From Candidatus Terryibacteriota bacterium (GTDB lineage: Bacteria > Patescibacteriota > Minisyncoccia > UBA9983), in the NCBI GenBank assembly GCA_016208535.1, contig JACQXW010000006.1, positions 1-39,071 on the forward strand: a stretch of 39,071 bases of DNA, given 5' to 3'. Below, in pieces: positions 20,670-33,220 of the stretch. Under the pieces are notes generated by a model. That model saw only the letters and a program-made list of their open reading frames with translations, made no database searches and was not told the origin of the DNA. The position numbers and the translations under genes are program-made. Position 1 is the first letter of the stretch, and each line of letters starts with the position of its first letter.

Positions 20670-21815
20670 ATGGATGCAATAGAAAAATTATTAACTCGCG
20701 GGGTAGAGGAGGTGATGGAGAGAGAGCATTTGGAGAGGCGGTTGCGGGCCGGCGAAAAATTAAGAATCAAGCATGGCGCTGACCCGACGGCGCCGGATTT
20801 GCATCTTGGCCACGCGGTGGTGATGCGCAAACTGAAGGAGCTTCAAGACCTCGGCCATAAAATAATTTTTATCATTGGCGATTTTACCGCCAAAATAGGC
20901 GACCCGTCCGGAAGAGCAATAACCCGGCCGGTTCTTTCCGATAAAGAAATAAAAAACAACGCCAAGACTTATTTCCAGCAGGTCGGAAAAATTTTAAACA
21001 TTAAAAAAACGGAAATACATTACAATGGCGAGTGGTTTGCCAAAGAGGGATGGAAAGAGGTTTTGGAACTGACGGAAAAGTTCTCCTTGCACAGGATTTT
21101 GGAGCGCGACGATTTTGAGAGGCGCATTGAATCAGGGACGGAGTTTTCCGTTTCGGAAATTTTATATCCCGTAATGCAGGCGTATGATTCCGTGAAAATA
21201 AAAGCGGACGTTGAAATCGGCGGCACAGACCAGAAGTTCAATATGCTGGCAGGCCGGGCGCTGCAGAGAAGAGTCGGCATGGCTGAGCAAGATATCATTA
21301 CGGTTCCGCTTCTAAGGGGTATTGATGGCGTTAAAAAAATGTCAAAATCAGTTGGCAATTACATCGGCATTACCGAGGCGCCAGATTCGCAATACGGCAA
21401 GATTATGTCCATTCCGGATAAATTGCTTCCGGAATATTTTGAACTGCTTACAGATTTGGTTTTTGATAAAAATGAAAATCCGCGCGATGCCAAAATGAGG
21501 TTGGCTTATGAAATCATAAAAATGTTTCATTCTGAAAAAGAGGCGAAAAGGGCGCAGGAGAATTTTATAAAAATTTTTCAAAAAAAAGAAATTCCCGAAG
21601 AAATTGAGGAGATAAGAGTGAGACAGGGAGAGGAACTGGGAGAGGTATTGGTAAAAAATAAAGTTGTTTCCTCAAAGAGCGAATTCCGCCGGCTGGTGGG
21701 AGAAAGGGCTATAGATGCAGATGCCAGAGTGATTAATGACCCCCGTTTTAAAATAGAAAAAGAAATCGTGGCAAAAATAGGCAAAAAGAAATTCATAAAA
21801 ATTGTTCCAAAATAA
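20670..21815 (+). CDS. tyrS: Tyrosyl-tRNA synthetase
   Basis: HGADPTAPDLHLGHAVVMRKLKELQDLGH, KMSKSVGNYIGI, C-terminal S4-like domain. Confidence 0.96.
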   Translation: MDAIEKLLTRGVEEVMEREHLERRLRAGEKLRIKHGADPTAPDLHLGHAVVMRKLKELQDLGHKIIFIIGDFTAKIGDPSGRAITRPVLSDKEIKNNAKTYFQQVGKILNIKKTEIHYNGEWFAKEGWKEVLELTEKFSLHRILERDDFERRIESGTEFSVSEILYPVMQAYDSVKIKADVEIGGTDQKFNMLAGRALQRRVGMAEQDIITVPLLRGIDGVKKMSKSVGNYIGITEAPDSQYGKIMSIPDKLLPEYFELLTDLVFDKNENPRDAKMRLAYEIIKMFHSEKEAKRAQENFIKIFQKKEIPEEIEEIRVRQGEELGEVLVKNKVVSSKSEFRRLVGERAIDADARVINDPRFKIEKEIVAKIGKKKFIKIVPK

Positions 21816-21846
21816 AACCCCTTCGCTCGCGAGCGAAGGGGTTTTA
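21814..21846. terminator. Terminator after tyrS
   Basis: AAAACCCCTTCGCTCGCGAGCGAAGGGGTTTT, near-perfect hairpin. Confidence 0.88.
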
Positions 21847-21850
21847 TTAA

Positions 21851-31821: not shown

Positions 31822-32613
31822 ATGCTCTATCTTCTTTATGGCAAAGATATATTAAGAAGCAGAAAGAAACTCAATGAGATTCTGGATTTTTTTCGTTCTA
31901 AAAATAAAGATGTTTCAATTTTCAAGATTGATGAATATGATTTTGAAAAAGAAAAATTAGAGGAACTACTTGGCGCCAACACCCTTTTTGGCGGAAAGGT
32001 GGTTGTTGTTTTTAACAGGATTTTAGGCGAGGAAAGTGTTTCCCGGATGATTATGGAAAAAATTGACCGTTACGCGGCGTCAAAAAATATTTTCATTTTT
32101 TACGAAGAAGAAGTGGATAAGGATATTCTTGGTTTGTTTAAGGAAAACTCAGCGAAGATTCAGAGATTTGATAAAGGACCGTCCTTCGCCAAAGGCGAAG
32201 GACGGTCCTTTAAAGGCGAGGGTCGGGTTTTTTTTGCTATTTGCGACGCTGTGGCTGAGAAAAATAATATCCGGGCGTGGATATTGTTCCAGCAGGCGCT
32301 GATGGATGGCATTGACGCGGAGGAAATTTTCTGGAAAATCTGGTGGCAGATTAAAAGCTTGCTGATGGTTAAAAATTTATTTGAATTATCCCAAGGACCG
32401 ACCTTCGCGGGACGCGAAGGTCGGTCCTTCAGTTTAGAAAAAGAAACCGGCCTGCATCCTTATGTGGTAAAAAAGAATTTATCAGCCATTCATAATTTTG
32501 ACAAGAGCGAACTCCAAAATTATTCGTTTCATCTCGTGAAACTCTATCATGACGCCCGCCGTGGTATGGCTGATTTTGAAATCGGCCTTGAAAAAATTCT
32601 AATAAGCATATAA
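31822..32613 (+). CDS. holA: DNA polymerase III delta subunit-like
   Basis: LYLLYGKDILRSRKKLNEIL, LLGANTLFGGKVVVVF; C-terminal delta-like domain. Start at MLYLLYG. Confidence 0.8.
   Translation: MLYLLYGKDILRSRKKLNEILDFFRSKNKDVSIFKIDEYDFEKEKLEELLGANTLFGGKVVVVFNRILGEESVSRMIMEKIDRYAASKNIFIFYEEEVDKDILGLFKENSAKIQRFDKGPSFAKGEGRSFKGEGRVFFAICDAVAEKNNIRAWILFQQALMDGIDAEEIFWKIWWQIKSLLMVKNLFELSQGPTFAGREGRSFSLEKETGLHPYVVKKNLSAIHNFDKSELQNYSFHLVKLYHDARRGMADFEIGLEKILISI
32173..32211. repeat. In-frame palindrome 1 in holA
   Basis: AAAGGACCGTCCTTCGCC-aaa-GGCGAAGGACGGTCCTTT, 18-bp perfect arms. Confidence 0.95.
32393..32429. repeat. In-frame palindrome 2 in holA
   Basis: AAGGACCGACCTTCGCG-gga-CGCGAAGGTCGGTCCTT, 17-bp perfect arms. 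Confidence 0.95.
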
Positions 32614-32701: not shown

Positions 32702-33220
32702 TTATGTGTGGCGGTCGGCTAAGACGAAAGCGCAGAAAGAATCAGGTTTGATAATCGCCTCAAAGCCGTATCCCTTAACCATTCCCACCACATTTTCAAT
32801 GAAATCTTTTGTGGGGCCGTTTTTGCCCACATCCAGATGAACTGTAATCTTATTATCCCCGCCTGCCATCTGGCGGGCAGGCCAGAAAAATTCCTCTCCC
32901 AGTCTATCTTTTAACTGGCTTTTTAATTCCTGAACAAACATTATGGAATGCATGGTTTCTTTGTAAATTCTGTCGCGGAGGGTTGGGCAGAAAGTTTTTT
33001 CCGATTTTGTCCAGAAATATTTCCCGCCGTTGCCCACGCGCAAGACAGCAATGGCTGTCACAAAATGGGTTTCATTGCTACCCTCAGAATCCGTTCCCAC
33101 GGTAATTTTATACCGGCCTCCAGATTCATTATTCACATATTTTACGATTTCCTCAACAACTTCCTCAAAACTAATGTGTCTTTTTAAGGTTTCGTTGTAA
33201 AATTGTATGTTATCCGACAT
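32702..33220 (-). CDS. DUF458/YkuK-like RNase H-fold protein
   Basis: ITVGTDSEGSNETHFVTAIAVLR ... VHLDVGKNGPTKDFIENVVGMVKGYGFEAIIKPDSFCAFVLADRHT; contains palindrome-derived PARQMAGG. Confidence 0.85.
   Translation of the reverse strand: MSDNIQFYNETLKRHISFEEVVEEIVKYVNNESGGRYKITVGTDSEGSNETHFVTAIAVLRVGNGGKYFWTKSEKTFCPTLRDRIYKETMHSIMFVQELKSQLKDRLGEEFFWPARQMAGGDNKITVHLDVGKNGPTKDFIENVVGMVKGYGFEAIIKPDSFCAFVLADRHT

Follow-up and report, generated by a model that had tools for sequence, protein, structure and literature searches.

Two related palindromes within a holA gene

The window, the whole 39,071-nucleotide stretch of patescibacterial DNA that was analysed, contains a holA-like open reading frame of 263 amino acids (31822..32613, + strand) that carries two palindromes of one family in frame, raising the question of what these elements are and how they came to lie in a gene for the DNA polymerase III delta subunit. 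The gene was identified by its matches to PF21694 (DNA polymerase III delta C-terminal domain, E 2.8e-10) and PF06144 (N-terminal delta domain), by alignment with ten relatives, and by Foldseek, where the best matches of the predicted fold are clamp-loader delta subunits (8giy_A and 3zh9). Palindrome 1 (32172..32212, no strand assigned) is an inverted pair of REP-like units, TAAAGGACCGTCCTTCGCC-AAA-GGCGAAGGACGGTCCTTTA, with 19-bp perfect arms and a 3-nt loop. Its left half-unit (32174..32186, + strand), AAGGACCGTCCTT, is itself an imperfect palindrome, and its right half-unit (32198..32210, - strand) is the inverted copy, reading AAGGACGGTCCTT on the + strand. Palindrome 2 (32393..32429, no strand assigned) has the form AAGGACCGACCTTCGCG-GGA-CGCGAAGGTCGGTCCTT, with 17-bp perfect arms and a 3-nt loop. 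A sequence-only reading of the window had placed both palindromes and the 17-bp arm correctly; the arm that it took to be 18 bp is 19 bp long. The two palindromes encode the peptides KGPSFAKGEGRSF and QGPTFAGREGRSF. In the predicted HolA structure, which is inaccurate overall (pTM 0.51), palindrome 1 codes for about residues 117-131 (DKGPSFAKGEGRSFK) of a linker predicted to be disordered (residues 119-133 have pLDDT values below 50, about 28), and palindrome 2 codes for about residues 191-203 of a loop (mean pLDDT about 62 over residues 191-200).

The arm motif AAGGACCGNCCTTCG, with up to 2 mismatches allowed, has 4 matches versus 0.24 expected, and 4 matches were reached in 0 of 100 shuffles; this test and the repeat family described below rule out a chance origin of the palindromes. 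A reading as terminator hairpins was rejected because both lie inside the holA frame. The HolA proteins of this genome and of G009 lack about 60 amino acids (domain II) that the nine other family members possess, and palindrome 1 sits where domain II is missing. Elsewhere in the window, a self-complementary CCGCCTGCCATCTGGCGGGCAGGC at 32855-32890, within an ORF at 32702-33220 (- strand), is possibly another in-frame repeat class, and a perfect 19-bp palindrome, AATAAAACCCCTTCGCTCG/CGAGCGAAGGGGTTTTATT, at 21811-21848 lies at the end of the ORF at 20670-21815 and resembles a bidirectional terminator.

A palindrome family dispersed over the genome

Copies were located by pattern searches and in the stretches around the elements. 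The source genome of the window (G000; 519 kb, 28 contigs) contains 11 related elements of the window family (family A), counted as ten plus one in a gene that, from reading its sequence, we take to be infB. The other hosts are holA (two elements), pilB/gspE, an Fe-S protein gene, priA, recG, a NiFe hydrogenase gene, mreC and Wzy (O-antigen ligase; two elements). Every element is an inverted pair with 0-12 nt separating the arms, and family A is thus both dispersed and built of two inverted units, as expected of REP/REPIN elements. The genome-wide tally of placement, frame and arm covariation proposed in the sequence-only reading showed that all 11 copies lie within long ORFs, that two reading frames are in use (KGPSF and KDRPS) and that the arms covary. 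Ten of the family A elements comprise 8 distinct arms with only 3 of 170 stem pairs mismatched, and differences between elements fall in both arms 94 times versus one arm 23 times, so that the mirrored differences noted in holA, which leave the stems perfect, extend to the family as a whole. Mirrored changes alone would be compatible both with selection for folding and with copying of already-perfect subfamilies. They could also be accounted for, within a stem, by local template switching (quasi-palindrome correction), which would have built each palindrome from native sequence without a mobile element; such switching cannot, however, account for a family sequence shared by 11 unrelated places and found around RAYT genes. 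As an origin it is largely refuted by the repeat family and is exceedingly improbable, although as a secondary process it may keep the arms matched.

A second family in the same genome (family B, TCCAAGGACTACCCTTGGA) has copies in a RAYT gene as well as in iscS, infB, a gene for a PAP2 protein and an ORF of 231 aa, and some copies are intergenic. Both families occur together in infB (L030:2865-4403), family A as a pair (AKDDPSRAAKDHPSP) and family B as a single unit (ENFQGLPLEEA). In sequence, the elements of priA and recG fall between the window core and the core of a RAYT of this genome, C22 (AAAGGATAATCCTTT). Repeat-like peptides outside this palindrome family were also seen in G000, namely NPVRSRQSLIADGFQRNPASNGVK, RLRQGSGGQARIF and DPVRSRERGSRSTSNGVD (L019:12290-12982, L021:1064-2965 and L027:3670-5931).

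Of the palindromes in 356 kb sampled from relatives, 10 lie in ORFs, 17 are intergenic and 3 are partial, a placement differing from that in G000 with a Fisher p of 0.0003 for two counts that were obtained differently. The coding fraction in the relatives is about 0.88, and no ORF enrichment is claimed from G000 alone. When the whole phylum was searched by pattern, only 2 of 290 genomes had the exact family A sequence; the sequence family is therefore local, even if palindromes of this kind are widespread. Scanning of a contig collection gave 30 stretches with an element, mostly from Patescibacteria and several outside long ORFs. The Nomurabacteria MAG MH-09jul19-147 contains more than 10 tight inverted pairs of a related GAAGGTCAGTCCTTC palindrome, many outside long ORFs (L100, L104, L107, L109, L113, L114, L117-L119, L122 and L123).

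RAYT genes and their private palindromes

Genes with a Y1_Tnp domain (PF01797, over cut-off) were found in 10 of the 11 family genomes, with five copies in G000. The HUH motif is present in 52/52 RAYTs, and both features, domain and motif, are as expected of this class. Automatic pairing gave 37 of the 52 RAYT genes a matching palindrome at two places, mostly upstream and downstream, and three more were added by eye, bringing the genes with a private palindrome to 40/52; its copies lie upstream and at or after the end of the ORF. In 24 of these 40 genes the RAYT ORF itself also contains the own core in frame, allowing up to 2 mismatches, compared with 0 of 1160 tests for unrelated cores. The internal palindrome usually precedes the HUH motif by about 20-31 codons. 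Internal together with flanking copies were found in 6 of 17 RAYT genes of a phylum sample, five of these at amino acids 49-62.

The window family itself flanks a RAYT of the sister genus (G005, L061) as AGCGAAGGACGGTCCTTCGCT, with a 15-bp core in common and flanking copies TAGCGAAGGACGGTCCTTCGCTA and CAGCGAAGGACGGTCCTTCGCTG, and a near form of the window palindrome flanks one RAYT in G004. In G000 the exact window palindrome is carried by 0/5 RAYTs. The nearest of these, C22, has the palindrome given above and shares 56% identity with the cognate RAYT of G005. Family B has its cognate RAYT in G000 (C16, L051), with the palindrome twice upstream, once in frame within the ORF and once near the C-terminus. 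With palindrome-coded residues masked, RAYT identity and palindrome mismatch are correlated at r = -0.50, a value reached in 0 of 5000 permutations. Copies within one RAYT unit are identical in 85 of 117 pairs, a figure biased toward agreement as only copies within 3 mismatches were counted, and the palindromes of units whose RAYTs are at least 65% identical differ at 4 of 15 positions on average. One 0.5-Mb genome, G004, has 15 Y1_Tnp matches, most with differing private palindromes. No qualifying hairpin was detected at the E. coli rayT locus, which is a poor control as the detector also misses the bulged REPs of E. coli.

Matching of gene palindromes to RAYTs of the same genome succeeded in 11/30 cases (permutation p 0.045), a weak test because many families have AAGG...CCTT in common and the window family is without a cognate RAYT in G000. 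Matches with 0 mismatches involve IscS, PAP2 and the 231-aa ORF for family B in G000, IscS in G003, RecG in G004, IscS, a 286-aa ORF and a 908-aa ORF in G005, a 171-aa ORF in G008 and a 1134-aa ORF in G010.

This association with RAYT genes bears on a comparison with Rickettsia palindromic elements (RPEs), according to which the palindromes would be selfish in-frame elements spreading without RAYT involvement. The phenotype is alike, with in-frame palindromes in housekeeping genes, and according to PMC3733652, RPE-4 and RPE-6 are CGTC-type REPs without a transposase. Here, however, RAYT genes have palindromes of the same family on their flanks and within them, and the palindromes co-vary with the RAYTs, making such an origin improbable.

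The same protein sites in relatives

Alignment showed HolA site 2 to be empty in 10/10 relatives. Site 1, the linker before (Y)NPFAICDA, holds palindromes of differing sequence in at least five relatives (G004, G005, G007, G008 and G010), that of G008 being short with 9-bp arms, and is without a palindrome in G001, G002, G003 and G006. The alignment therefore rules out a conserved HolA peptide as the explanation. It bears out the earlier suggestion that the palindromic DNA is conserved rather than the peptide, and nowhere among the ten relatives was the same peptide seen without palindromic DNA, the observation that had been named as contrary to it. The G005 assembly contains two holA copies on separate contigs (L072 and L079), in which the same linker has an inverted pair in one and a single palindrome in the other; a strain mixture, with mixing in the MAG, or a duplication is possible.

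Similar patterns are found in other proteins. RecG contains differing palindromes in G000 and G004 and none in G002, G003, G006, G007 and G009, and one loop of IscS holds differing inverted repeats in most relatives. In G001, G006, G007, G009 and G010 this loop contains a longer inverted-repeat class of about 75-90 bp, with a peptide like SLRTDxxGNSTE, and in G002 and G005 another class, of the SSRLYPQAGSDAGSE type (loci of the differing classes: L166, L167, L168, L170 and L172). HolA site 2, RecG and PilB are in-frame palindromic insertions missing from orthologs, which is the hallmark of RPEs, and these sites, plain in relatives, suggest that new insertions also occur. The net gain is +11 amino acids at HolA site 2 and about +10 in RecG, in both cases below the palindrome length, and +12 in PilB relative to the two closest orthologs. 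Net gains are thus often smaller than the palindrome, and simple insertion is therefore not the whole story. The site comparisons, which span genera rather than strains, revealed no copy that was polymorphic or had been excised.

These observations could be explained by conversion in situ, in which a palindrome long present at each site (HolA linker, IscS loop, RAYT internal site) would be replaced time and again by the currently active one in a homing- or gene-conversion-like manner, instead of being inserted independently in each genus. The differing palindromes at one protein position across genera, the net length changes smaller than the element, and the identity of copies within a RAYT unit as compared with the divergence between related units are in its favor. 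The within-unit figure is nevertheless inflated by the 3-mismatch cut-off, and relatives in which a site is plain (five genomes for RecG, and also HolA site 2 and PilB) point to new insertions as well; we regard conversion as possible but less likely than not. A function of the hairpin for the host, such as mRNA stability, pausing or protein domain spacing, maintained by selection, would fit stems that remain near perfect despite sequence change and the same-site recurrence in HolA and IscS. The host genes are, however, functionally unrelated, many orthologs have no palindrome, the peptides are predicted to be disordered or of low confidence, and palindromes of the same kind are also intergenic, which renders such a function highly improbable.

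Comparison with known repeat systems

The elements most resemble REP/REPIN sequences and their RAYT (TnpA_REP, 'REPtron'), for which flanking palindromes, inverted doublets, co-variation and orphan families without a cognate RAYT have been described (PMC2817692, PMC3116915, PMC3686654). Palindromes on both sides of a Y1/HUH gene, dispersed inverted doublets and co-variation with the RAYT are all found here, the cognate RAYT being that of G005 for the window family and that of G000 for family B, and none of the five RAYTs of G000 carrying the exact window palindrome. The Stenotrophomonas REP (PMC8266576), whose perfect stem of 8 bp carries a 3-nt loop, is close in shape. In contrast to REP/REPIN elements, which are mainly extragenic and of high copy number, copies are few here and the window family of G000 is found only inside ORFs, and many RAYT ORFs hold a further in-frame copy. 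No tetranucleotide 5' of the palindrome, GTAG (or GTGG) or other, is common to the copies compared; identity between copies drops to background a few bases beyond the palindrome edge, and the conserved unit stops there, unlike in experimentally studied REPs. Lacking a GTAG head, the elements are therefore not classified as classical GTAG REPs, only as working like them.

Intragenic GTAG and CGTC REPs and dimers, many in replication and repair genes, are described in PMC3733652, including differing REPs at about one recB site in two Xanthomonas species. The families of that survey are defined by a GTAG or CGTC tag, unlike the headless palindromes here, and Patescibacteria do not figure in its passages on intragenic REPs; same-site recurrence is seen here in at least three proteins (HolA, RecG and IscS), compared with recB there. 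The survey also describes TIRYT/TIRtrons, RAYT-like genes lying between inverted repeats that have no relation to GTAG REPs and in some cases are self-complementary, as here; its passages on these mention no internal in-frame copy, unlike what is found here. Rickettsia RPEs likewise are in-frame palindromic insertions in functional protein genes. Compared by description rather than by sequence, RPE-1 is longer than the elements here, and the CGTC-type RPEs are given in that survey as having no transposase.

Proposed origin and implications

The holA elements are probably (probability roughly 0.8) copies of a short REPIN-like mobile palindrome, spread by a RAYT and surviving in protein loops. 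The mobile unit would comprise two self-complementary units of 15-23 bp in inverted orientation, moved as an inverted pair. The RAYT, a Y1/HUH tyrosine transposase, would act on the folded single strand of its palindrome; known RAYTs cleave single-stranded REP hairpins (PMC8266576). Hairpin selection and template-directed copying, the two causes offered in the sequence-only reading, are both compatible with a RAYT-type element that has a folded single-strand substrate. In-frame copies in flexible loops or linkers would survive because the frames used contain no stop codon and the encoded peptide is short and soluble. RAYT action would thereby yield perfect stems, inverted doublets, dispersal, cognate specificity and in-frame survival in tolerant loops, and the hairpin rather than the peptide is what appears, from the sequence comparisons, to persist. 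We infer that the RAYT moves or converts palindrome copies, and that the window family of G000 was spread by a RAYT that is now lost, unassembled or changed by an 'orthoswitch', as described for Pseudomonas (PMC3686654). A more far-reaching proposal, which we consider speculative and rather unlikely, is that each patescibacterial RAYT gene has the palindrome that it recognizes both at its two ends and in frame within its coding sequence, and that a change in specificity would rewrite every copy at once, host-protein copies included, making this a self-editing palindrome system that marks and remodels protein linkers.

Intragenic REPs in other phyla, RPEs and RAYT-REP co-variation are already known (PMC2817692, PMC3686654, PMC3733652). 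No report of REPIN, RAYT or in-frame palindromes in Patescibacteria was found in the open-access literature and, as far as this was searched, the phylum, the lack of a GTAG head, the recurrent filling of the same site in several essential proteins and the palindrome lying in frame inside RAYT genes are new; self-coding palindromes inside RAYT genes appear to be undescribed. In-frame coding palindromes, puzzling since their discovery in Rickettsia, are here linked, in a large uncultured phylum, to one defined class of transposase; in this phylum unrelated palindromes fill one linker of essential proteins in different genera. For annotation, peptides like GPSFAKGEGRSF in patescibacterial proteins probably derive from mobile DNA, and RAYT genes with their own in-frame palindrome provide a direct handle on the co-evolution of RAYT specificity and substrate.
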